DNA from: Circinella umbellata
Lineage: Eukaryota; Mucoromycota; Mucoromycetes; Mucorales; Lichtheimiaceae
DNA: 64,000 bases
Assembly: GCA_025093555.1 (NCBI GenBank)
Contig: JAIWNF010000109.1
Coordinates: 1 to 64,000 of the forward strand
Direction of reading: 5' to 3'
Both the position numbers and the translations under genes were made by a program. Below the pieces are notes generated by a model. It made no database searches. It was not told where the DNA came from and saw nothing but the letters and a program-made list of their open reading frames with translations. This document shows positions 11,751 to 59,055 of the stretch, piece after piece (the first letter of the stretch is position 1; every line of letters begins with the position of its first letter).

Positions 11751-13885
11751 CTAGTGAATACACGGGAGTATTATCTCGGATAACTTGCCTAATTTTTCTA
11801 GTCGTACCAATTCATCCGATCCACCTATACTTTGACCATTAACGAAAAGGTTAGGAAAAGTATGACGACCTGAGAGTCTAATCAAGGCTTGTTTCATTGC
11901 TAAAGAGTCTTTTCGTTGATCTACTTCAACAATGAAATAATTATTTTTACAATATTTATCTAAAATTTGTTTGGCGCGTTTACAAAAAGGACTTTTTCAG
12001 GGGGGAAGACCCAGGGCAGGGAGGGGGGGCAAGGAGAGAAGGAGGGACCGAACAAAAACAATCAGAAAACAAAGGGGTAGGGGATATAATAAAGAAAATA
12101 AAAGAAGGGAGAAGTTAATATATGCAATGTAGTAATAATAATAATAGCAAAAAAAAAACAAGATTGTTTTAATGTGATGCTATCATGTAAGTTTAAAATA
12201 TAGATGCTTTTTTTAAAGTTTGTATCTAGCCCCCCCCCCTCATAACATATATAATATACTTACCAATAAGTTTTACTATAAAGTACTACTGGATATTTAC
12301 GTAAAGTATATTGAATCCATGTGGTTTGTGGATTCATCAATTTCAAAGTATACAATTTAGGTTGAATAATAATATCGACAGGTAACAGAACATGTGGATT
12401 ATGAACAAAATGCTGAAGTTGATCCAAATAAACTTTAGGGGATTTCAATTTGACAGCTTCTAAACCAAACGTTTGATCCACAAGTTGAAATTCTTGATGA
12501 TGAAACCCAGGATCACTGGTAATAAGATGTGTATACTCTGCTTCAATGTAATCGTCGGGTGTTGTGTGTGATTCGTTTTTATGATACGACCATCCTGGAT
12601 GAGCCACTTGTCCAAATCGTGATGCACCTGTCATAGCAGTTGATACATCCATATGAACTGATACTTGGGGTTGTTGACCATAAGATACATCACTATTAGC
12701 AATTTCATGAAGTCGATGCAATGCATGTCCACCAGGGTAATTTTGAATTGAAATCCAAAGCATAAACAATGAACATCCAAGCGATACCAATATACCTCCT
12801 CCCGCTATTAATATGACGAACAAAGTCTTGATTCGCGATGTTTGATAATATACAGAAAAAACATTACCCAGTAAAGCTGCAGCAGCGGCGGTAAAAATCG
12901 GGATGGTGTAAATAATAAAGCGCCATTCCTTATGCGGTAGCAGTGAAAATAAACAAATATAGATCAACATGGGACTCATAATCCGACGAACTCGTTCATC
13001 ACGTATAAATGCAATACAAGCCAATGGATATGATATCAATAGTAAGCGAGGGAGGAATAAGACAAAGTAAGCATAAAAGGGTAAAGTACCCCATTCAGAA
13101 CTTTTGTTCAAAATAGCATTGAAATAAAACACCATTCCTTCCGGCCACAATGGCCATTCTCCATTAATAATATCACGTTGCCAAAAGTAAGAATCAACCG
13201 ATACAGTCAAAACTAGGCTTACAAGAACACTTGATACAGTATGTATGAACATAAACTTGAATGATAATGTACGATATACAAGCCATTCCATTCCAAGAAT
13301 AATAACTAATAAAATGCCCGCTTCGAAACGAAATAAGATGCCAGCAATAGCCAAGTCTCGTATCATGTCACGTAACTGAGTTTCACGCCCTGCTGTTGCT
13401 ACCAAACTCTCCATCCAGTGGGAGAGACCACTTAACACCAGGGGTAAGGCAATAGTATTGGGAAGTGTACGACTTGACCAGAAGATAAAGTGAAATTGGC
13501 AACACGTCAGGAGCACAAAAGCAACCGAGGCGGGATAACCAAAAAGTCTCTTGATGGCGACTTGAATTCGAATGAGTGCTAAGTTTACCAAGGCACCAAG
13601 AAGAACTCGTACAATGATTTGCTCGGTAATGCCATCTTTAATATCAATGTGGATCCAACGAAGAATGGTAACAATAGCTTGTGCAATAGAACCGAGAATG
13701 ATAGATCCAAGAAAAGATCGTGGAACAACACCTGGGAATTCCACATGATCGTAAGCATTTATATTTCCACCGTGATGCATGACATCGTGAGCAGCTTGAA
13801 TATTAAAGCTTTCTTCAACTTTTGTATAAGGACATAAAAGACAATAGAGTATAATAAATAAAAACACGAGGAGTTTTATCAACAT
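11751..13885 (-). CDS. ALG12: ALG12 mannosyltransferase fused to a C-terminal glutaredoxin
   Basis: Exon 1 (13885-12264) encodes a GT22-family ER mannosyltransferase: PYTKVEESFNIQAAHDV at the N-terminus, about ten membrane segments, the HKEWRF motif, and the YPGGHAL segment followed by a soluble domain. ALG12 adds the eighth mannose (alpha-1,6) to the dolichol-linked oligosaccharide in the ER lumen. Exon 1 ends LYSKTY-TG at a GTAAGT donor. Exon 2 (11991-11751) starts T-CCT-TTT-TGT, so splicing makes CPFC, then KRAKQILD, a TFPNLFVNGQSIGG segment and a stop. This is a complete dithiol glutaredoxin of about 95 residues; its first strand (YPVVLYSKTY) lies in the ALG12 exon. The total is 620 residues. 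The start was taken at the Met before the first membrane segment; an in-frame Met at 13951 would add 22 residues. Retaining the 272-bp intron gives TYW-stop. An internal Met (LMNPQTTW) could start a free glutaredoxin. Confidence 0.88.
11992..12263 (-). other. Intron joining the ALG12 and glutaredoxin parts
   Basis: This 272-bp GT-AG intron (donor GTAAGT, acceptor AAAAAG) is longer than the typical introns of this window. On the transcribed strand it has a run of nine or more G about 25 bases after the donor and a C-rich tract (several runs of 3-7 C) just before the acceptor. These could base-pair. The first intron bases complete TGG and then TAA, so an unspliced transcript ends at once. Confidence 0.75.
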
Positions 13886-14524
13886 ATCAAGCAATATATT
13901 GAGAATTATGTCTTTTTTTTCTTTTTTTTTTATCCTTGAGTCGTGAAACAAAAGACCAGTGTTATTCAGTTGGTTGCCTCGTGTTTTATTATAATATACA
14001 TATATAAATAATCACATAACACAGAAAATAGAAAAAAAAAAGTAAGTAACTTGATTGCTTATTTTGAATTAGATACAGATACACACACACACATAATTCA
14101 TTGTTATTATTTATATATTTGCCCCAAAATCCATCCCTTTCTCTCTCTCTCTGTCTAACTTTTTCATTTTTTTTCACTCCCTTTCCTTTCCTTAAATAAA
14201 CCTCTCTCATTAATAATATCACTACACAAGAGGAAAAGCAATCCTTATTTTTTATAGATTTGTTATTACTATCTGTAGGAGAAAAGGGCGTTTCTCTCTT
14301 TTATTTATTTATTTATTTCTTTTCCACTTTCTCTTTCTTTCTTTCTTTCTTTTTATTCAGCTCCTTTCTTTATCTTTTCTTTCCTTTCTCTTTTTTTTTT
14401 TCCTTCTTACTCTAATTTTTTTTTAAAAGAAAGATAACAATAACAATAATATTTATATTCATTTTCTTGTGTATTCCAACTATAACCACAACAAACAACT
14501 TATTGAAACGGGAAAGTCTAAATC
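13886..14524. promoter_or_regulatory. Shared promoter region of divergent ALG12-Grx and arrestin genes
   Basis: Head-to-head intergenic region. Bases 14290-14420 are strongly pyrimidine-rich on the + strand with CTTT and TTTA repeats, ahead of the arrestin ATG. A CT repeat lies near 14139-14153. The stretch 13886-13951 is either 5' UTR or the first 22 codons of the ALG12 gene. Confidence 0.5.
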
Positions 14525-17500
14525 ATGAAAGATGCTGTCATCAAGTTTGTCGAAATCGTTCTTGTTGATCCCGTATTGGACTTTATGGGTCAGCCCAAAC
14601 CACCTAGTTCCGTAGATACAGCCGAAGACAACGACACTGATAGTCAAATAGAAGAGTCTTCAGATAGTTTGATGCTTAAAGGTGAAGCACTATTTTCTTT
14701 GACTCGCCCACTTAAAATTCGCGGAATGAGTGTCAAGTTTAAAGGTGCGTCTCAAACCAGTTTACGTGGTGGCAATATTCAAGCATCCATCTTACCTAAA
14801 CTCAAGCAAATCTTATTTGGAAAAACTACTTTACCTGCTGGAGAACATATTATACCCTTTTTATTGGAAGTTCCAAATATATATCCAGCAACACTATCCA
14901 TTAAACGTGCCATTATATCTTACAAGGTGGAGTTATCTATTATCGGTATCTTTGGCTTACAAAAAAAGTCAATTACCGCCGAACATCCTGTTGAAATTCG
15001 TCGGCATCTATTGCGGTGTAAAGAAATGGCGCCACTAGTCGAAACGCAGATCATTGAAGATACAGTACCTGCAAAGTTTCATTACGAAATTGACGCTCCT
15101 CAAATTGTTTGTCTTCAACAAGGTAGCATCCCTTTCTCAATCAAATATTTGTGCTTTGCGTCTCAGAAGCCCGTGCGGAATATTCGAACCCAGTTAAAAC
15201 AGATTGAGCTTTACAGGTAATTTTTTATTCTTATTAAGGGATAGTCTCATGGTTATAATTTTTTTTTTCTTGGGGGGAGGGAAAAAGAAAATGTATAAGG
15301 CTGTCCTGGGAGATATTTATGTCAATACTATAATTATGGTTACATGATGTATATGCCTATATTGTTCCATGTGTAACTTTTTTGGTGACGGATGGAGAAG
15401 ATTTATGAAAAAACTTTTAATTGTATGACAAAATTAATGAAAAAGGTCATTTTCTACTATTTTGAAAAAATCAAAAATCTACTATCAAATAATAGTGCGG
15501 ATGCAAGAACAGCAAACCCATATCGAAAAATTCAAAACATTGCTGATACATTGATCATGTCAACACGGCCTCATAAAAAATATATTAAACGCACTATTCC
15601 AGCCTTATTACATAGTGTGGATAATTCACAAGAAAAATCAACATGGAAACGACCTTTAATTCTTCGACACAAGTTACAAAAGTTGTTATCACCGACACTT
15701 GACTCCCCACTCGTTACCATTTGTCATGAATTGGAAATTATTTTCCAATTTGAACATGCATTCGAGAACATCAAAGCTAAAGTCCCTATTGTCATTGCAT
15801 CTATTCCACCACCGAACGGTAGCAAAAATCTTTTGTCATTTCAACCATTAACGCATGGTATGCCACAGTATCATTTTGAACGAGATCAATCGCGACTACA
15901 TGATTCATTTGTTTCAGTAGTTATCGAAGAACCAACACGAGTGGAAGAAGTCGATCATATTGATGATAGCGATAGTATACAACGAGGTGCTCATTATAGT
16001 TTGTTGGGCGAACCTCGATTAACGGTGACTTCATCTACTATTAATTTACTAAAAATATCTATGGATGATTCTTACTATCATCATCAACAACATTTACATA
16101 TTCAAGGGAATACCAATCATAATGTGACGGGTCATCCCCTTCGAAAACAAGATACACTTGGCAGATCCATACGAAAATTCGCCTCCGCTAATGAGCTGAG
16201 TAGTCTTTCTCGTCGAAGCGAGGAATATGATGTTGATTATTCCATGATGTTACCACTTGAAAGACCGCGCACAACCACTCCTCTTGTACAGCGTCGTCGA
16301 GAAGCGGCTCACCAACATCTTCGACAGCCATGGTTACGACCGATCGACGTTGACTTGGCCAATGGATTGAGAAAACCAGTAGAACAAAATAAAAAACAAC
16401 AGCAGCAACAACATCGACAAGAAAATCTTACAACAGTTGATATTAACTTAATTCGAAGCAAAGCGCGGTTGCAACAAGTTCAACGAAACAGTAAACGTAC
16501 AACTGCACAAGAATTACAAGTAGCAGCAATAGCTTCAGGAACAATTTTACCGTCAATAACAACAGCAGTAAATAAAAATCGAGCAACTGTGAATGATGCC
16601 AAGAAGAATATAATTCCTGAGGACACGGGTTCTACAGGGTCTGACAATACATCACAATCCAGTCAATTTGCACCAAGTTCTATTTCATCCACAACGGATC
16701 GCAGCATGGATGATGATATATGTACATTAAAAACACGTCCACCTTCCATTGTATTTGGTACAGCACCAGGTCTACCAACAGAGACAGAACTACGTCCTCA
16801 AAATGCAATTAATGTTTCACTAGTAGAAGAACAATTTTTGACAGATGTTGATGATCTAACTTTCAATAATGATGACAATAATACAAATGGCGAAACTGTC
16901 TTGATATCCCCAACCGTAGCCACCCTTGCTTCATCTACATTATTATCACCAAGAACAAGTTATGCATTACAACGGAGTCGAGGTAGCAATAATGGGATTC
17001 CATTATCTACTGCAACTATGTCCGGTGGATATAAAGCAACTCGTAGTAGCAGTATGAATACACATGAATCATCGACATTAGATGCTCATGATGAAGTATT
17101 AAGGCGTATTGCATGTACACAAGAGCGGCAACAACAATCAATGACAGAAAAACTTTGTCTTCAACCTCAACCTCCTGCCCCGTGTTCTCCATTACCACCT
17201 TTACCTCTATTACCAAATCAATTACCATCTCGACCATCAACAGATACCATTACCAGCATTGATGTCAATAAAAATAATCACAGCAAAAAATCATTCGACA
17301 AACAAGATAACCCTTACGAGTATCTTGAACTTCCTCCAATACCAACAATTGTTAATAAAAATTCATCTTCTCCCATCATTTCATCATTACAAGCAACAAC
17401 AACAACAAAGGCACCTTTATCTGTAGCTCCACCACCACCTACTATACCCTTACCTGACATTCCTCCTCCTTCTCTTCCAACAACTACAAGTCGAACAGTA

Positions 17501-17746
17501 CAACCTCGTCGACGAAAACCTCAATCATCCGAAAAACTGTCTCGTCGAATGACCAAATTATATGTTGAAGATAGTGATGATGAAGTATTAGATCCATCTC
17601 CTCCAGTATCAGCACGATATGATCAACATCATAACGCTATAAATGATGATGATGATGATTATGGTGTTGTTGCAGAAAGTGCACCTTTATTACCACGACT
17701 TTCACTTGGTACAACATTTGGCTTTTCATTGGATATTGAACAATAA
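14525..17746 (+). CDS. Alpha-arrestin-like protein with long disordered tail
   Basis: Exon 1 (14525-15216) encodes an arrestin N-domain fold: KFVEIVLVDPVLDF, a SLTRPLKIRGMSVKFKGASQ segment, then LPAGEHIIPFLLEVPN and IKRAIISYKVELS. It ends in phase 2 at a CAG|GTAATT donor. The best phase-compatible acceptor before clearly coding sequence is 15495, giving exon 2 at 15496-17746 and 980 residues in total; sequence between 15392 and 15495 is also open but AT-rich and was treated as intron. The second half is Ser/Thr/Gln/Pro-rich with an acidic stretch and a terminal leucine-rich APLLPRLSL. Fungal alpha-arrestins act as ubiquitin-ligase adaptors for membrane transporters, usually through PPxY motifs; I see none here, so this could be a divergent member. 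Confidence 0.78.
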
Positions 17747-26014: not shown

Positions 26015-27824
26015 ATGGGTGATTCTGGGTAAATATGAAAGGAAGTGCATTGCTTCTTAGAATCCTGTTGTAAATTAACACTTATATATATTTTTCTTCT
26101 TGTAGATTGAGTCAAGACGATTTTCGAAAACTTTTACAAACACCACGACCCAGTTCAAATGATGATTCAGAAACAACAACAGCACAAACACCACGCTTCA
26201 AGGCACCTGCACCAAAAGCACCGTAAATACTTTTTTTTCCATTATACCTTTTTTTTTTGATAATCTAATTGTCAATTTCTTTTTTTAAAAAAAAGAACAG
26301 TTACAAGTTTTAACACTCTCTTCTTTATTTTTTATTTGAAGACGAAATACAGGCGCTGTATTTGCTACACCACAAGCCATTCGAAAAAAGAAATCTCAAA
26401 AACCATCTTCAACACCTTCCAACTATCGCGATCGAGCTGCTGAGCGACGTAACAATGAACAACAAGATGAATTATCTACCGAAGAATTGTTACAGAAGAC
26501 AACAAGAGAACAAGATGAAACTCTAGACGCAAAGCAACTATATGAACAATCCAAATATCTAGGTGGTGATGTAGATCATACCCATCTTGTCAAGGGTTTG
26601 GATTATAGTTTGTTGGAAAAAGTTAGAAATGATATTGGAGTAAAGTTAGCGGATGCTAAAAGTGAAGCAGTATTGGATAATGCATTGGATCGATTAGGTC
26701 AAGAAAAAGGAACCACTCGTATAATTGATCAAGATGAGGATGAAGATGAAAACGATGAGGATGAAGTGGAGCGGATTGCTGTTCGATCGATATTAGCAAA
26801 AAATCTTGTTCACTTAATAACAACACCAAAACCAACAACTAATGAATTATTCACACCAGGACGTATGGCATTTGTTTTTGAATTGGCAGATGAGGTAGGA
26901 CATTATACGGATGCATTCGCTCTACCCACAACTGTCATTCGTAGTAAAGCAGATGTAATACGAAAGAGAACGGACATGCAACAAGAAACAGAATTAGTGA
27001 TTAATAAAATTTCACAAATTATGCGACCTCAACAACAAGAACCAGAAATAAAGAAAGAAGATAAGAAGAAAAAGAAGCAGAATTCAGAATCTATAGTCGC
27101 ACCACCGCCATTACCACCTGCTGATTCAGATGATGATATTTTCTCAGATGCAGGAACGGATTATGAATTAGATGAAGAAACATTGACAAAAGATAGAAAT
27201 GAGGTTGATGACGATGATGAAGTGGAAGAGAGTAGTACTGTACGAAAGAATTATTTTGGAAAAGAAGAGGAACATGAAGAAGAAAAAGAAGGAGATCAAA
27301 TGCAAGAAGTATCAAAATTATTGTCGCAGGCGACACAGCAAAACGAAATTCAACAGAGTGCGCCATCTCAACAACAAGAACAGGAGCAGGAGCAACCGGC
27401 AAAACGTCGAAAATTCGACCAAGAGCAAGAAGATGCGGATGCAATGGATATCGATATGTATGGTTTGGGAACAGCCGCACTTCCAACATCTTTTGAAGAT
27501 CGACAACGCACAATTGCTTATGATTCTGATGACGATGATGAAGAGGATGGAGGAAGTCGAGCAACTACATCATTAGTAGATCAAGGAACAAATCGTAACA
27601 AAAAAGCACAATTAACTCGATGGGACTTTGATGATGAAGAACAATGGCAAAAATACAAGGATACAATAGAAATCCACCCAAAAAGTGCATTTCAATACGG
27701 TGTTAAACTGGGAGATGGACGAAAACGAAATCGTGATCAACGACGTGGAATGTCTGATAAACAAAAGCTTAATCGAGATTATCAAATGGTTAAAAATATT
27801 ATGGATAAGAAATATGGTAAATAA
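26015..27824 (+). CDS. RED/IK homologue, spliceosome B-complex protein
   Basis: Three exons. Exon 1 is only 14 nt (26015-26028, ATGGGTGATTCTGG), exon 2 is 26106-26222 and exon 3 is 26342-27824; together 537 residues. The N-terminus reads MGDSGLSQDDFRKLLQTPRP after joining, and exon 3 has YRDRAAERRN, then SKYLGGDVDHTHLVKGLDYS, the hallmark RED segment. The middle is very acidic (DEDEDENDEDE). The C-terminus has TRWDFDDEEQWQKY and KSAFQYGVKLGDGRK. RED (IK) works with Smu1 to activate the spliceosome B complex in the nucleus. Presence of RED fits the intron-rich gene style here. The micro-exon start is inferred from phase and from the conserved LSQDDFRK. Confidence 0.9.
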
Positions 27825-49326: not shown

Positions 49327-51363
49327 TTAAGTGCGTCTGCGTTTATTATTGATGCGTGATGATCGACGTGGTAGTGATACACGTTTCAGATTTTTGTTTG
49401 AAATCTTTTCTTGATTCCGACGTTGCCAATATCTTTCAATTTGTATAAGGTCATTGAAATGTTCAATGGGTTCCTAAGTATCATCATCAGGACCGTAACC
49501 TTTCCATCGTACAAGATATTTATAATTTCCTGGTGTTCCTTCATGATCAATGATTGATTGAACTTCAAAGAAGTCATCGCCAGAAGCAATGGTATCCTGA
49601 GAAATTAATTTTATTTGATGTGGAGGAACATCACGTGAGTGAAGAGCACCAGTTGCGTCAGTAAGAACGTATTGGCCATTGCCTTTATTCTTTCCATGAA
49701 CTGTGTAAGGGCCTTCATAACGAACGTCTGTTTTAGAGCGGCGAGTCATATTTTGAATCATCACTTTGCTGCTAACAGGAAATTCTTTAATAATTCGGAA
49801 TTTTTTAGAAAATTTTCCTTGCTGGGCTTTTTGTAAAGCATCCATACGATCACGGATGGCTGGTATAACAATGTTAGCCATGTTTTCTTCTCGTTTGTCA
49901 TTGAAGTGTATTTTATTATTTACTTCAGTTGAGTTTAAATAATTGTAGTCTTCCCATAAATTTGGTTGACGTGCAAAGAAAAGAGAAAAAGGACGGCTGT
50001 TGTGTAACTTTGCTATTTTATTATTAATGCTCAGTTGTGCAGCAGGTAAGAAAAGATCCCAATCGTCTTTTTTACCATGTAATCGTTTAACGATAATGCT
50101 TTTCATAGCCTTAACTTTTGTTTCGCAAACTCCATTGGCCATCGGATTATAGGAAGTAAGAAGCCGTAAGTCGATTCCACAGTTATCAAGAAGATGTTTA
50201 ACAACTTCGTTTACGAATTCTGTGCCACGATCATTTTGGATGATTTTAGGAAAGCCTAAATCGGCAAATACTTGAATAAGTGTTTTTGCGATCGTGAGAC
50301 CTGTTTTGTCCGGTATCGGGCGTAAAAGTGTGTAGCGGGAATAAATATCAACAATAACAAGAATATAATTATTTCCTCTTGGAGTAGTACAATTAAGGTC
50401 ACCTGTGTCAAGTGCAATATGATCCCACGGTTTATCAGCATAAATGCTACGCATAGGATGAAAACCCTGTTTTGCGAGTGTGAATCTTTGACAGTCAGGA
50501 CAACCAGATACAATATTTTGTGCATCCGTTTTAATTGAAGTCCAGTGTATATGTTGACTATGTAATTCATCAACTATAGCATCGATTCCGAAATGTCCGT
50601 GAAGATGAGCTTGTTGTAATAAGTTCGTACGTTCTTCAACAGGCGGAGTCATGAAGTCAGTATAGTCATTACGAATTGTAGCGGCGCATTGAACATGTGT
50701 AGAATTATTAAAATTCTTTTTATGTAAAGAGCGAGTATCACCCAAATAAGGTGCAGAAGCGAATAATTGTTTTTGTATAATATTACCCCCCTCCAGCTTC
50801 TGCGAAGACCAAAGACGTGATATAGTATCAGGAATAATATTATCAATACCCGGAATGTGAACAACTTCGAAGTCATAATCACAAATCATATCAAACCATA
50901 TAACCATCATAGGATTAGCAATCGGTTGAGTATGTAGGTATGTTAAAGCTTTATGATCGCAATAAATAGTAAACTTTGGTTGACCCCATAAAAATTTATG
51001 AAAGCGTTTAAGTGCAAAAACTATGCTTAAAAGTTCACGTTTTGTAGTAGAATAATTACGTTCAGCCTTATTTAAAGAGCGTCCCATAAAACCAATGTAT
51101 TTATATTGATTGTCAACAACTTGATAAAGAACACTGCCAATTCCAGTGGATGAAGCATCAGTAGCAAGATTGAGTGGAAGCGATTCGTCATATTGACTTA
51201 AAATAGGAGCAGATTGTAACGCAATTTTAATATTATTAAAAGCAGTGGTGTGTTCATCGGTCCAGTGTTCAGAAAGATTCTTTACTGTACGCAATTTATC
51301 CAATTTGCTGGTAAGCATTTGGACACCGGGAATATGATTCCGTAAATAATTAATATAACCCAA
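49327..51363 (-). pseudogene. gypsy pol, C-terminal part: RNase H, integrase, chromodomain
   Basis: Reads from GYINYLRNHIPGVQML to a TAA at 49327-49329, with one in-frame TAG at 49474-49476. Domains: end of reverse transcriptase, RNase H (TTKRELLSIV, IYCDHKALTYL), zinc-binding HHCC of integrase (HLHGHFG to CPDCQRF), DDE core (IALDTGD, QNDRGTEFVNE, NGVCETK), then a chromodomain (VQSIIDHEG, KYLVRWKGYGPDDD). The TAG falls in the chromodomain where a Trp is usual (DDTWEPIEHF type), so it truncates the part that directs insertion to heterochromatin. Confidence 0.9.
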
Positions 51364-54111
51364 ATACAGTACCTTTGTAATGAGGTAGTATCTTTAGGAA
51401 GAGGCCATTCTTGAACGTTAGAAATTTTCTTTTTGTCAACAGAAATGGAACCACTTTGAATATTAAAACCCAGTAATGAAACGGATTGTTGTGCAAAAGA
51501 GCATTTTTCATGGTTAACAGTAAGGTTCACGGATGATAAGCGACGAAGCGTTTCTTGTACATGATGTGTATGTTGCATCATATTATTTGATGCAATAATG
51601 ATATCGTCAACATAGACCGAAACATATGGTACATCGTGAAATAATATTTGCATACATCGTTGTACATGAGCAGAAAGAAACTTTATCCCAAATGGCGATC
51701 CAATAAAACAATATTGTTTATTCATAAAAGTAAATGACGTGCGATTTTGATGATCTTCAAAAATACGGAATTTATGAAAACAGCTTTTTAAATCGAGAGT
51801 AGTAAAAATAGATGCATTTTTCATTTTATGGAAAATATCCCGAATTAAAGGAAGTTCATGATTATCATGCGTAATGTCAGGTAATAATAAATTTAAAGGT
51901 CTCATATCCATGCAAAACCGTAATTTTGTCATATTACCATTACTATCCTTTTTAGGTACACATAAAATAGCATTATTATAAGGAGTTCCTGGAGGAGCAA
52001 ATTTGATTATACCATCTTGTAACCATTCATCAATTTGTTCTTGAAGTTTAGGTAAGACTTTATTTGGCAAATCATATTGACGACGATAAACAACTTTACC
52101 AGAAGGAATATTTAAATAAACCATAGATTCCGGTATAGTGCAAAAGTCATGTGAAGGAATGTTTATATTTTCCTGTACAAAAGGTTTAATTTTGTCCATA
52201 AATAGTTGATGTTCCACAGATGTACCAGCAGGGGGATTATCCGGTTCAGGCATATCAACAGGTTGAGGAACAGAAGGGATTGAAGGTTTGTGCCAACAAT
52301 ATGCTAACCCTTTTAAATAAATACCAATGTGGGGCATTAAATCAGCGCCAATAGACACATCAGCAGAACAATTTAAATTCATTATTTCAAAATTGTGAAA
52401 AGCAGTAATTCCGTTATGTATAATCTTTGTTTTATTTGTATGACCACTTCTATCTATGCTAAGCCCAGGGGCAGCCATACCAATCTTGCCGGGACAAGAG
52501 GTAAACTCCAAACCAAGAGAAGAGCGCAGACCAGGTGTAATTGCCGTAAATGTTGAACCGGGGTCCACAAAAGCAAAAATGTCATGTCCCTCTAAGGTAA
52601 TTGGTACATAGTATGATTTAGTATTTTTGAAAAGATGTTTTGTAAAATCATGAGAATGATTGGACTTACAGTTAAAGCAGGCTTTGACTAGAGATTCTTC
52701 AACCTCAGACATCAATGTATCCTCATTTGCAGGAGGAACAGCAGCAGGTGCAGCCAAATTCGGACGGACCGAAGAAACAGAATTATCATCCTGTACGGGT
52801 ACAGGCAATGATGATGGTGGTGGTGGCGTGACTGGTACGGAACCAGAAGCCGAAGATGATGATGATGATTGGAGGAGAGAGGCAGAGCGGATTGCCAAAT
52901 GATTGACCTCACAAACATGACCTTGTTTCCAGGGAACGAAGCCACACTTGAAACAGTTTTTCTTCCCAGAAGAAGACGAACCAGCAGACGAACCAGCAGC
53001 ACGAGCACCAGACGACGAACCAGCAAACTTCGCAACCTTACCAGTATTACCACCAACTTGTAATGAAGACAGAGCGCGACATTCTTCGGAAGAATGACGG
53101 CCTGTTCCATGTAAGCGGCAGTGTTTGGCGTCGGCTCTCTTCTTTCCTTTATTTTTCTTGCCGGAAACAGCAAGCGACAGACCACCAGCAGCAGAAACAG
53201 CAGAACTTGACAATGACGAGTCGGAACTCGCAGCAACTTGCTTGCTATGCTTGGAATGAACAACATTACCATATAATCGGCGAGCAAGGTTGGCAGCATG
53301 GTCGATGGTGGCACGTTTGTCCGGAGACAAGTGAGCTTGACCCAAGGTTACGTGTTGACCTAATTCAGGTAACAACGAATTTATGAACAAGGCAGCCATA
53401 ACACGGTTGTCTTCACAGCCTGCCTCACGACGAAGCTTATGAAACCGGTCGGTATACTGCTCCACCGAGTCATCACGACCCATCCGCAACGAAAAAGCTC
53501 TTGCATGAATTGTGCTTGGCGATCAGCATCTTGTATACCATACTTGTTAACGAGCGTCTTGCGAGCGAACGACCAATCCAAAGCAGCATGAGGTTTTAAA
53601 TGGTCAATAAACCAAGAACGTTGGTCCAGAGACAACATACGTGGCAGCAAACGGCACCAATTAACATTAATATTTTGACCGTATGATTCAAGAATATCCT
53701 CAAATCGGTCAAGGCATTCGTAGATGGAGGCAAACACGGTCTTGGAGCTATCATAACATTACCGGTCCATTGTAAAGACGGCAAGTCTGAAGGAACAATA
53801 ACCTTAGATGACGAGGTAGTAACAGCAACCTTCTCCTTTTTGGATAATCTTTGTGTACATCTAAGATCATGTCTAAACTCTTAGAATGAATGGAAAACAA
53901 GCCTTGAATTTTGACGAGCTCTTGTTCGGATAAGTCATCACGCACCATTTCTTCTTCCAAGAAGGCAAGCTTGGCAACTAATTTCGCTATTCTTGGTGGC
54001 AAGCGAGAAGATGAAGTGGCAGACACATGAGAACCGGTTCGCTCATTACATCATCTTCAAGATGATGATCAGCATTGGCAGATGGAATAGATTTTCTTGT
54101 TGTTGAGACAT
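51282..54111 (-). pseudogene. gypsy gag-protease-reverse transcriptase, frameshifted
   Basis: The gag ATG is at 54111. Several frame changes follow: near 54050, near 53830, between the pieces ending at about 53740, and near 53480, where the change is consistent with one missing T in a T run. From about 53489 one frame of 735 codons holds the gag C-terminus, a Cys-rich knuckle-like segment (CFKCGFVPWKQGHVC), a protease with FVDPGSTFTAI in place of the D-S/T-G core, and reverse transcriptase (DLKSCFHKF, VYVDDIII). The frame is lost at 51363 by what looks like a 4-bp insertion before LGYINYLRN. Confidence 0.87.
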
Positions 54112-55227: not shown

Positions 55228-58200
55228 ATGATGAACGAAAACAATCAACCACCACTTTTAACATTTGCCTCACTCAATTTTCGAGGCCTTAAAAAAACAA
55301 AAACACAAAAACACAAAAACACAAACCATATTTTCATCAAATTCGTTCTCGGTCATATGATATCATTGCACTCCAAGAAACACAACATTTTTTTGATTTA
55401 TCATTCCATGAAGCCTTCAATACTTGGACTAAACACTGTGGATTAGTTTCTTTTAATGAAAACCTTCTCATTTTACCATTATGGTCATCCATTGATGGTC
55501 GTATTCTTGCAGCCACCATTACTCATCGACAACATTTTTTCTCCCCTATTACTATTTATGTCATATATGCACCTGCTCAACGCATTGATCAACCACCTTT
55601 TTTTAATCAATTATACTCTCTTTTCAATTCACTTCATCAAACCGTCTCATGTAATATTATATTAGGCGACTTTAATTATAATCTCCATTCTACTCATCGT
55701 CATTCTCTTATCAACCGCCATTGGACACAGTGGCTACATGAATCCTGGTTCGACCCTTTTGCACAGGAGCCCCATATCATGCATGCTCCAACCTTTTTTG
55801 GTCATCAAGGCACCTCTAATATTGACTTCATTTTACTTTCTGGTGATTTAATTGCTCGCGCTAAATCCCCCCAAATATCTTTTGTCTCCAATCGAACTGA
55901 CCATCATGCTGTCTCTATCAAATTACATCTTTTTGATCAGCAATTTGGCCTAGGCATATGGAAAATTAATCCTTATCTGGCAGATAATAACAATATTCGT
56001 GATAAACTTTATCATTTTCTTAATGAAGGCATGAAGCACTTACCTTCCACTTATGCTTGCCTCCAATGGACCACCTCAAAAGTCAAGTCAAAATGTTTGC
56101 TAAAGATTTTCATGAAAACAACATGCTCAAACAAAACGCCACCTACAACAACTACGTCGATCACACCGTCAGTTACAACAACTCCAACATTCTTATATTA
56201 CTTGTAATACACCAATTATCACCAATTCCGAACATACTGGATCTATTCGTAACACACTACAGCATGAGCTTGCCAGTATGGAAAAAGAGATTGACCAGGT
56301 CACTGATCAGGAAGGAAACATCCTTGCCCTTCGATCAGGTCATAGATGGCGTGAATTGGGTGAACGCTCAAATAAATATTTTTATCGCTGTCTTTGGGAA
56401 CGACATCAACGTCAGAACATAACAGCTTTACAGACCCAGGAAGGTCTCTTAGTACATAATAATAATGATCTTTTGGATTGTGCTCATTAGTACTATCATC
56501 AGCTTTATACTGCCACTCCTGTACAAGACCACCATATTAATGAACTATTTCGCTCTACCCCATCTTCTGCAAAATTATCCGCCAATGACTGTGTATATCT
56601 GACTAGTGACTGGAATGATGATGATCTTACTGCATGTTTAAAAAAAGTACCTTTCCACAGTAGCCCAGGTATTGATGGTATTCCTTATACAATTCTCAAA
56701 GTCATTCTTCGCCATCCTGGCTGTCGCTCTCTTTTTCTTCAAGTACTTAATGAAGCCTCCAAATATAGTCGTTTTCCTCCTACCTGGCAAAGATCTGTTG
56801 TTACTCTTCTTCCAAAGAAAGGAGATCTTATACTTCTAAAAAACTGGCGACCTATTTCACTCTCATGTACGGATGGAAAAATCTTCACATGATTATTAAC
56901 CACTCGCCTCATTGGCCCTTGTCAACAAATAATACAGAATCAACAAACCGGATTTTTACCTCAACGTTTTATAGCTGATAATGGTCTGGCCACTCGTCTT
57001 ATTATAGATATCGCTCACCATTACAACATCCCTGGAATCGCCTTAGCTATCAATATGGAAAAAGCGTATGATAGGGTTCATCCCCAATATCTACGTTCTA
57101 TTTTTACTCTATTTGGCTTTCCAGATACACTGGCTAATAATCTTTCCTCTTTATTTTTTAATACTTCGCTTTGTATCAATGTGAATGGGTATTTGTCAAC
57201 TCCATGTCATCAAGGGAGAGGTTTACGCCAAGAAGATCCGCTGTCACCTCTTCTTTTTAATCTCGTTCTAGAACCGTTTCTGCGAGCAATTAACTCTCAT
57301 CCAATGATCAAGGGGTTCACTTTTGCCAGTCCTCGCCGTAATATACCCAACATTCCTGACAGTACACCACCACCACTTAAATATCTTGCTTATGCTGATG
57401 ATACATCAGTCTTTTTATCTCGTCCTTCTGAACTACTAGCTTTACTCGATCTTATACAGCTTTATAATAATGCATCGAATGGCAAGATTAATAGAGAAAA
57501 AACAATGGCAATGTCTCTTTCAGGTAAGAGACAATTATCTTGGATTGCCGCCCTAACTAGGGCTGGTATTGGGGGATGACATGATTCCTCTTCTCCCCAT
57601 CCAGTTATATATCTTGGTTTTCCACTTTCAAGTTCTAAATCTCAATTAAAATACTTTCTAGATGCTCTTTTGGATAAAACTGTTTCTTATGCTCAAATGC
57701 TATCATCCCGGTCACTATCCATCCAAGGTCGTGGTCTCGTTTCAAACTCTCTATTACTAAGCAAAATATGGCACTGTATACAGATATTACCTATTACTAA
57801 GTCATATTTACAACAACTACAATCCATTATATACCAATATGTCACTCAACAAGCTTTTCCACCAGTTAGCTTTGCAACATGTTCACGACCGCGAAAAGAA
57901 GGGGGCCTTGGTATTCTTGATCCTATTGCTCACCATTCAGCTTTACAGCTACGATGGATAACGCCACTTTTGGACCCAACAACTGATGCGGATGCATCCT
58001 TTCTTACACCTATTATTAAATTCTGCTTGCAACTTTTTTCTCAATCTTCATCATTTCTATATCCACTTGTTTTTCCGCAACGCCAGCTTCGTCCTTTATC
58101 TAGTTTTGGTTCTTTCAAATCTTTCTTTCGATGTATTGATACACTTCACCTCAAAGTAGATTGGACCAACATAACTAGTTTAACTGTTCGTGACTTCCCC

Positions 58201-59055
58201 CTTTCTTTTATTGTTGTCAAAGGTCACGATATATCGCATCAAGAGTTCTTACACCATCAACAATTGTGGCACGAAATATTAGTAAAAGATGCCTTTCAGT
58301 ACAACGTACCAACACAACAGCTACATCGATGTAACCCTCAACAATGCAGACGACACCAGCATCGAGTAAAAGATTTTTTTGACCTTTTGGATGCTGGCAA
58401 ATATGTTTTGACACACGAATTTTCTTGCCTAATTGACTCATCATCTACTACGCTTCCTATCCAGCAACCCATAACCTTATTTATATCCGCACAATTTCTT
58501 AATAATATTCCAATTATCAATATTACTACCAAACTATATCGCGCACAATTCTTACCACACTTCAATCAGTTGCCTGATTGGTATCCCCGTGCTTCTAAAG
58601 CAAAGTGGAAAACCTTTTGGAATAGTTCTTTTCCACATAGGGCACACACAATCTGGTGGCGCATATTGCATCAAGAACTATCTTGTAAACAATGCCTCCA
58701 TCAACTGATACCACACGTATTTACCACACCTACCTGTGTTTTCTGTGAATCAACTGATACACCTCAACACTTTGTGTGGGAATGTTCTATCAAACAATCA
58801 GTCTGGAAAAACATTGCATCTCGCTATTTGGTCTCTCCTCATGAGCTCACCATTGATCACATCATCTCTTTTTCACTGCCTGATTTATCAGTACGTCCTG
58901 AATTCAACCTTACGTTTTTTGACATTATTGCCACCACTCTATTACAAATTTGGTCCGCTCATTGGCAATTTGTCTTTCACCAAACAACCTTCTGGTCAAC
59001 CGGTGTCATGGCCAAAACAATTCTTCACCTTCGTAAAATCCATTTGGAACAATAA
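55228..59055 (+). pseudogene. LINE ORF2: endonuclease and reverse transcriptase, degenerate
   Basis: Starts MMNENNQPPLLTFASLNFRG, then a frame change at an (ACAAAAAC)n repeat. APE endonuclease pieces follow: DIIALQETQ, ILGDFNYN, SNIDFILLSGD and NRTDHHAVS. From about 56400 to 59055 a single frame carries reverse transcriptase (PGIDGIPYTILK, WRPISLSCTDGK, MEKAYDRVHP, LRQEDPLSPLLFNL, YADD at 57391) and a C-terminal zinc region (WWRILHQELSCKQC, CVFCESTDTPQHFVWEC). Stops interrupt it at 56488 (TAG), 56890 (TGA) and 57577 (TGA). Motif A has Asn (AINMEKAYD) where the catalytic Asp is expected. The copy should be inactive. Confidence 0.9.

Follow-up and report, generated by a model that had tools for sequence, protein, structure and literature searches.

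Can an enzyme that builds the N-glycan precursor carry a thiol oxidoreductase as part of its own chain? The question is raised by a gene on the minus strand, at positions 11751..13885, of a 64,000-nucleotide stretch of Circinella umbellata DNA (contig JAIWNF010000109.1, positions 1 to 64,000; the window hereafter), in which the mannosyltransferase ALG12 runs in one frame into a complete glutaredoxin. ALG12 is the alpha-1,6-mannosyltransferase acting on Man7GlcNAc2-PP-dolichol. Judged from sequence, the frame is fused, the fusion is conserved in Mucorales and Umbelopsis, a single ALG12 locus is found and the catalytic and glutathione-site residues are intact. Taken as a whole, the locus is probably best explained as encoding an ALG12-glutaredoxin that is lumenal in the endoplasmic reticulum (ER), redox-active and most likely active in trans. 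Both halves are known families, and the joined architecture is already visible in public gene models.

Gene structure and the joined frame

The following features were assigned to the gene:

12264..13885, minus strand: exon 1, encoding the whole of ALG12 (residues 1-516) together with the first helix and first strand of the glutaredoxin, and ending with the TG of the Cys541 codon (from the open reading frame, Pfam and an orthologue model)
11992..12263, minus strand: phase-2 GT-AG intron of 272 nt within the catalytic cysteine codon (from the sequence and the tryptophan read at this codon in relatives)
11751..11991, minus strand: exon 2, with the last base of Cys541, PFC, TFPNLFVNGQSIGG, the C-terminal helix and the stop (from the sequence and Pfam)
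12338..13885, minus strand: ALG12 part (GT22), residues 1-516 (Pfam and orthologue model; coordinates derived by hand)
11982..11991, minus strand: rest of the active site C541-P-F-C544, the first two bases of the Cys541 codon being 12265-12264
11949..11951, minus strand: Cys555, first of an extra cysteine pair specific to the fusions (row comparison)
11760..11762, minus strand: Cys618, second of that pair (row comparison)

From the ATG at 13885, the open frame reaches 12264 as ...YPVVLYSKTY-TG and meets the donor GTAAGT, while the acceptor (...GAAAAAG/T) places the start of exon 2 at 11991; this exon ends with the stop at 11751. The spliced product has 620 residues and the C-terminus ...LPCIH, and retention of the intron would give an immediate stop (TGG TAA). 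A Pfam search of the joined protein found PF03901 at residues 6-396 (136.5 bits against a cut-off of 23.8) and PF00462 at residues 533-596 (61.3 bits against 22.9). The initial annotation had proposed the splice TG/GTAAGT...AG/T between 12264 and 11991 and a single ALG12-glutaredoxin frame; the coordinates and the splice are correct, the Pfam scan gives both domains in one protein, and the same order recurs in relatives.

A protein search (8000 candidates scored, with the best 120 of 2357 matches listed, the basis of all row counts here) returned 38 rows with both domains. These relatives, and the fact that the ALG12 exon already contains the first helix and strand of the glutaredoxin, bear out the claim that the two domains are not adjacent genes, and two separate full-length genes were seen nowhere among the protein rows examined, the genome loci of the relatives not having been read.

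The ALG12 half and its topology

By sequence and structure model, the product of exon 1 is ALG12. It contains PF03901 and is closer to ALG12 than to ALG9, and in the structure model of the Circinella minor protein (predicted local distance difference test, pLDDT, 93.4) residues 1-518 match chicken ALG12 (9s6t). Unfused ALG12 rows from Rhizophagus, a Mortierella-type fungus, Jimgerdemannia and Bifiguratus stop near fusion residue 516, whereas in the fusion the glutaredoxin follows at this point. A Rhizophagus ALG12 query matched just one locus in the 50.8-Mb genome (E <= 1e-5), so that a second, unfused ALG12 was not found at this threshold. Other PF03901 loci of the same genome lie on contigs C138, C158 and C113.

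ALG12 has been modelled as a protein with 11 transmembrane segments and its C-terminus in the ER lumen (PMC6801728), and the helices of the orthologue model can be grouped, by our own grouping, as 11. In that model the glutaredoxin domain follows the lumenal tail of ALG12 through a short and confidently predicted junction. The lumenal placement suggested at the outset is supported by the published model, itself mainly predictive. An NES sequon at residue 437 was considered as proof of a lumenal position and discarded, K436 and E438 being invariant in alignment A1 with or without the sequon.

The glutaredoxin half

In the Circinella minor model, residues 517-620 match class I glutaredoxins, and the window protein carries the class I marks SKTYCPFC, TFP and GGSD. 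Enzymatically active class I proteins are marked by an activator lysine before the site, by basic residues after helix 3 and by the lack of a WP motif and long loop (PMC7138851), and the fusions agree with them in all of these. The window sequence (SKTYC, GRHTFP) has neither a WP motif nor an elongated loop before the cysteine, which are class II marks, and a tree of 45 rows, with two class II sequences as the outgroup, places the fusions with class I at a support of 100/99.

Among the 38 fusions, 30 active sites are CPYC, four are CPFC, two are CPYS (Cokeromyces P0009 and Benjaminiella P0064), one is CSYC, and one belongs to a mis-spliced Syncephalastrum model (P0006). The first catalytic cysteine is thus kept in 37 rows, P0006 being the exception, and C-x-x-C in 35, while TFP or TVP, the lysine before the active site and GGxD are each present in all 38. 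Chlamydomonas Grx2 (7ncv) and human GLRX2 (2fls) share with the fusion the fold, a CPxC-type site, the preceding lysine, TxP and the GG motif; the fused domain differs from such free class I glutaredoxins in being tethered to a polytopic glycosyltransferase and in having the extra pair Cys555/Cys618. Conservation and structure model back the identification as a dithiol glutaredoxin, and the domain would be active as a glutathione-dependent oxidoreductase.

The extra pair is present in 35 of the 38 fusions; both cysteines are missing in the Rhizopus-type rows P0019 and P0022, and P0021 stops before the second. For comparison, 120 listed free glutaredoxins, a set rich in plant proteins, were scored at the last site of each row: both cysteines occur together in none, and 116 have neither. 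Two Cunninghamella rows follow the same pattern of both or neither: P0078 retains the pair though its first catalytic cysteine is gone, and P0068, with a short tail, has neither. Joint presence and joint loss suggest that Cys555 and Cys618 form a structural disulfide, which would fit the expectation for an oxidising lumen.

Conservation across moulds

The 36 named two-domain rows come from 30 genera, as counted from their names, including Umbelopsis (P0023, P0027); the other 29 are presumably all Mucorales. The closest, Circinella minor P0001, has the same length of 620 residues and is 98% identical, with 14 differences, two of them within the glutaredoxin. Row P0021 reads through the junction in a 579-residue frame, and since its contig has 1,823 bases, an intron could be no longer than 86 bases; the end of the frame, IGRAHV, is what we take to be a translated sequencing adapter, so P0021 may be cDNA. 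A second search, by region and with candidates chosen by shared words, gave 12 matches among 168 candidates, 11 of them named and from genera that we likewise assume to be Mucorales. The ALG12-glutaredoxin order, which the initial annotation proposed to look for in other Mucoromycota, is thus present across Mucorales and Umbelopsis. None of the 38 two-domain rows lies outside Mucoromycotina, a statement about the best 120 of 2357 matches that does not imply absence elsewhere.

Mean pairwise identity across 15 full-length fusions is 0.53 for the glutaredoxin, 0.55 for the membrane part and 0.50 for the lumenal tail; by this measure the glutaredoxin domain is conserved as well as the ALG12 enzyme.

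The position of the intron was compared in 32 related rows without a glutaredoxin domain, chosen by hand. Tryptophan stands at the split cysteine codon in 25 of them, 21 of which terminate there, and they include rows that by eye lie near Umbelopsis, e.g. P0043 and P0049. Such a tryptophan is what TG and the donor yield when read unspliced, which indicates that the intron position is common to the relatives. In the other seven, P0045, P0063 and P0066 stop earlier, P0059 and P0065 show no trace of the domain, and P0068 and P0078 have serine for the cysteine.

PF03901 is the only domain found in Jimgerdemannia (P0065), Bifiguratus (P0080), Rhizophagus (P0072) and the Mortierella-type row P0082, all four of which stop short of glutaredoxin helix 1 in the alignment. 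The Sporodiniella model P0066 terminates early. The simplest history would be a single gain before the split of Umbelopsis and Mucorales, with later decay or loss in a small number of lineages, the losses being provisional since gene models could hide exons.

Some annotations of these proteins are themselves incomplete. The ALG12 models P0035 (SKSYW) and P0011 (SKTYW) end at the intron donor and probably omit the glutaredoxin exon; Mucor lusitanicus additionally has a model that includes it (P0052). Other fused models, such as P0002, P0005, P0020 and P0041, have 412-471 residues, cover about 70-75% of the query and begin inside ALG12, and these are probably start-site annotation errors.

Origin of the domain

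The genome also encodes free dithiol glutaredoxins (L001, L005) and, as named by eye, a Grx5-like protein (L002), a Grx3/4-like protein (L003), two SH3BGR-like loci and one GST-like locus. A further glutaredoxin gene, L025 (C142, 268825-269434), has a CPYS site and an N-terminal hydrophobic segment; its public model P0188 (119 residues) omits the upstream frame that holds this segment. The idea that the fusion is the sole secretory glutaredoxin was rejected on account of L025. Its product is similar to RiGRX6, for which a CPYS site, a putative transmembrane segment and, in yeast, an ER-like distribution are reported (PMC4765768). Proteins of the Grx6/Grx7 type (ScGrx6, RiGRX6, L025) bring a membrane segment of their own at the N-terminus and use a C-x-x-S site (PMC4765768), whereas the fused domain has no membrane segment of its own before it and a CPFC rather than a monothiol site. 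The two share the expected compartment, and Grx6/Grx7-type proteins are the nearest free relatives of the fusions in one of two trees.

In the 45-row tree the fusions were not grouped with Grx6, Phycomyces and Spinellus stood apart, and ScGrx6 had a very long branch. A second tree of 42 rows was made after the first had been seen, with ScGrx6 and the fungus's own Grx5 and Grx3/4 removed; here 22 fusions and two Grx6-type rows lie on one side of a branch with support of 99/95, the Grx6 rows inside the fusions, and the data do not reject a clade that contains nothing but fusions (p-AU 0.233). A Grx6-type origin of the fused domain is likely on these data, and the domain would then have been already lumenal when captured. 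Three of the four class I genes have introns near the active site: that of the fusion falls between bases 2 and 3 of the cysteine codon, and those of L005 and L025 split the proline codon behind its first and second base, respectively. The L025 intron has the same phase as that of the fusion, one codon downstream. Since the introns lie at different bases, they are no proof of a single origin.

Proposed function and alternative explanations

The product would be one polytopic ER membrane protein, in which a turn of two residues links the C-terminus of ALG12 to an entire dithiol glutaredoxin of class I. The glutaredoxin would be lumenal, folded with its extra disulfide, and would work as a glutathione-dependent oxidoreductase. 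It would most likely act in trans, its substrates being disulfides or glutathionylated thiols, either in nascent glycoproteins or in nearby machinery for glycosylation and quality control, close to the site at which the lipid-linked glycan is completed. This would amount to a secretory-pathway glutaredoxin held in place by ALG12 and not by a signal anchor of its own. The cysteines of the window protein outside the glutaredoxin (15, 18, 128, 129, 290, 311 and 371) are all in hydrophobic segments, Cys18 being at the margin of its segment, the first; this makes a partner in trans likelier than a target in cis in this species; a cis target is possible in others. The initial annotation had inferred a coupling of N-glycan precursor assembly to thiol and glutathione state. 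A further reading, in which Mucorales and Umbelopsis have made the glutaredoxin part of lipid-linked glycan assembly and it works on cysteines of glycoproteins or of partners in the oligosaccharyltransferase (OST) or ER-associated degradation (ERAD) where the glycan is completed, thus tying N-glycosylation or glycan-based quality control to lumenal glutathione, is tentative and has clearly less than an even chance.

Several observations weigh against a lumenal, redox-active, trans-acting glutaredoxin. The lumenal position of the C-terminus has as its basis a mainly predictive paper (PMC6801728) and homology, and the CPYS gene L025 encodes a separate glutaredoxin with a hydrophobic N-terminal segment. 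Rhizopus microsporus P0059, which stands for 11 member sequences, has no glutaredoxin domain, while R. arrhizus P0019 has one. The Cunninghamella rows P0068 and P0078 have a recognisable glutaredoxin-like tail in which the first catalytic cysteine and the GG motif are lost, and neither has a PF00462 match at E <= 0.001. Judged by Cunninghamella and R. microsporus, some species seem able to do without catalysis. Cysteines outside the glutaredoxin, for their part, leave room for targets in cis: a cysteine just before the HKEW loop (the column of P0001 residue 315), a loop taken to be lumenal, is present in 14 of 37 fused and one of 26 unfused rows, and absent from the window protein; Cys129, which lies within the membrane, in 17 of 19 fused and seven of 26 unfused rows; and Cys18, at the margin of helix one of the membrane part, in seven of 19 fused rows.

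These cysteines are what a redox switch in cis would call for, in which the tethered glutaredoxin senses lumenal glutathione and tunes the mannosyltransferase through cysteines of ALG12, and both the physical tether and the enrichment of the loop cysteine and Cys129 in fused rows speak for it. The switch is nevertheless improbable, given that the window protein lacks the loop cysteine and has its other cysteines in hydrophobic segments, that the lumenal tail contains a cysteine in just three of 37 fused rows, and that kinship differs between the fused and unfused rows and may alone account for the enrichment. The Cunninghamella tail, which persists without its first catalytic cysteine and in P0078 with both extra cysteines, speaks for a structural or docking role, the glutaredoxin fold serving as a lumenal scaffold or partner surface on ALG12 with catalysis incidental, and the short junction means that the domain may be rigidly held. 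A scaffold would not need the near-invariant first cysteine (37/38) or the lysine, TxP and GGxD found in every fusion, and this role is unlikely, if less so than the switch in cis.

The intron itself allows another reading, in which the spliced mRNA gives ALG12-glutaredoxin, the retained intron gives plain ALG12 ending in ...SKTYW, and the ratio of the two acts as a switch. Retention halts the frame immediately and 21 of the 25 tryptophan rows end exactly there; against this, TG followed by a GTAA donor yields TGG TAA with no selection needed, and the tryptophan rows are unspliced readings or gene models rather than protein evidence, so that two products are about as doubtful as the cis switch. 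That two neighbouring genes were merged through a false splice or an assembly error could be argued from certain public models that stop at the donor, e.g. P0035 (Mucor lusitanicus) and P0011 (Apophysomyces). This is very unlikely, to the point of being negligible, and is rejected on conservation: it conflicts with the 38 two-domain rows, the common intron position, the read-through row P0021 and the encoding of helix 1 and strand 1 in the ALG12 exon, and the 14 differences from Circinella minor P0001, together with the two-domain rows, exclude chance.

Comparison with known systems

Oxidoreductases attached to the N-glycan machinery have been described, as seen for Ost3/Ost6 in OST and for the Htm1-PDI pair (PMC7563561). 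Like the fusion, Ost3/Ost6 (MAGT1/TUSC3) places a thiol-oxidoreductase domain physically in the N-glycosylation machinery (PMC7563561). The difference is that Ost3/Ost6 is thioredoxin-like and part of OST, while the fusion has a PF00462 glutaredoxin on a GT22 enzyme of lipid-linked glycan assembly; if the glutaredoxin takes part in that assembly, it would be an independent second solution to the role of Ost3/Ost6 in OST. The initial annotation knew of no described example. This holds for the open-licence literature as far as titles and the beginnings of abstracts go, where searches aimed at the fusion found no paper on ALG12 or another mannosyltransferase joined to a glutaredoxin, and a term search for 'mannosyl' and 'glycosyl' in the text of a study of glutaredoxin domain combinations (PMC2679010) gave nothing; it does not extend to public gene models, many of which already have the architecture.

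The ALG12 pathway is conserved in eukaryotes, and a group-wide redox fusion hints that glycan assembly meets lumenal thiol chemistry. The fusion is a natural construct with which to ask if a lumenal glutaredoxin aids glycosylation or glycoprotein folding, and it offers a shared character for Mucorales and Umbelopsis. It is also a warning that several public ALG12 models of this group are cut off at the intron.

Neighbouring features in the window

The divergent neighbour on the plus strand (14522-17743) is arrestin-like, with Arrestin_N in its first frame and a sub-cut-off Arrestin_C in its second, and a RED-like protein carrying RED_N and RED_C is encoded at 26340-27821, plus strand. A retrotransposon lies at 49477-53522 on the minus strand, with two overlapping frames in which Pfam finds reverse transcriptase, RNase H, integrase and a chromodomain. 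At 55293-59052, plus strand, a reverse transcriptase frame (56893-57576) stands amid long frames that may be one element, perhaps of the non-LTR (long terminal repeat) kind.
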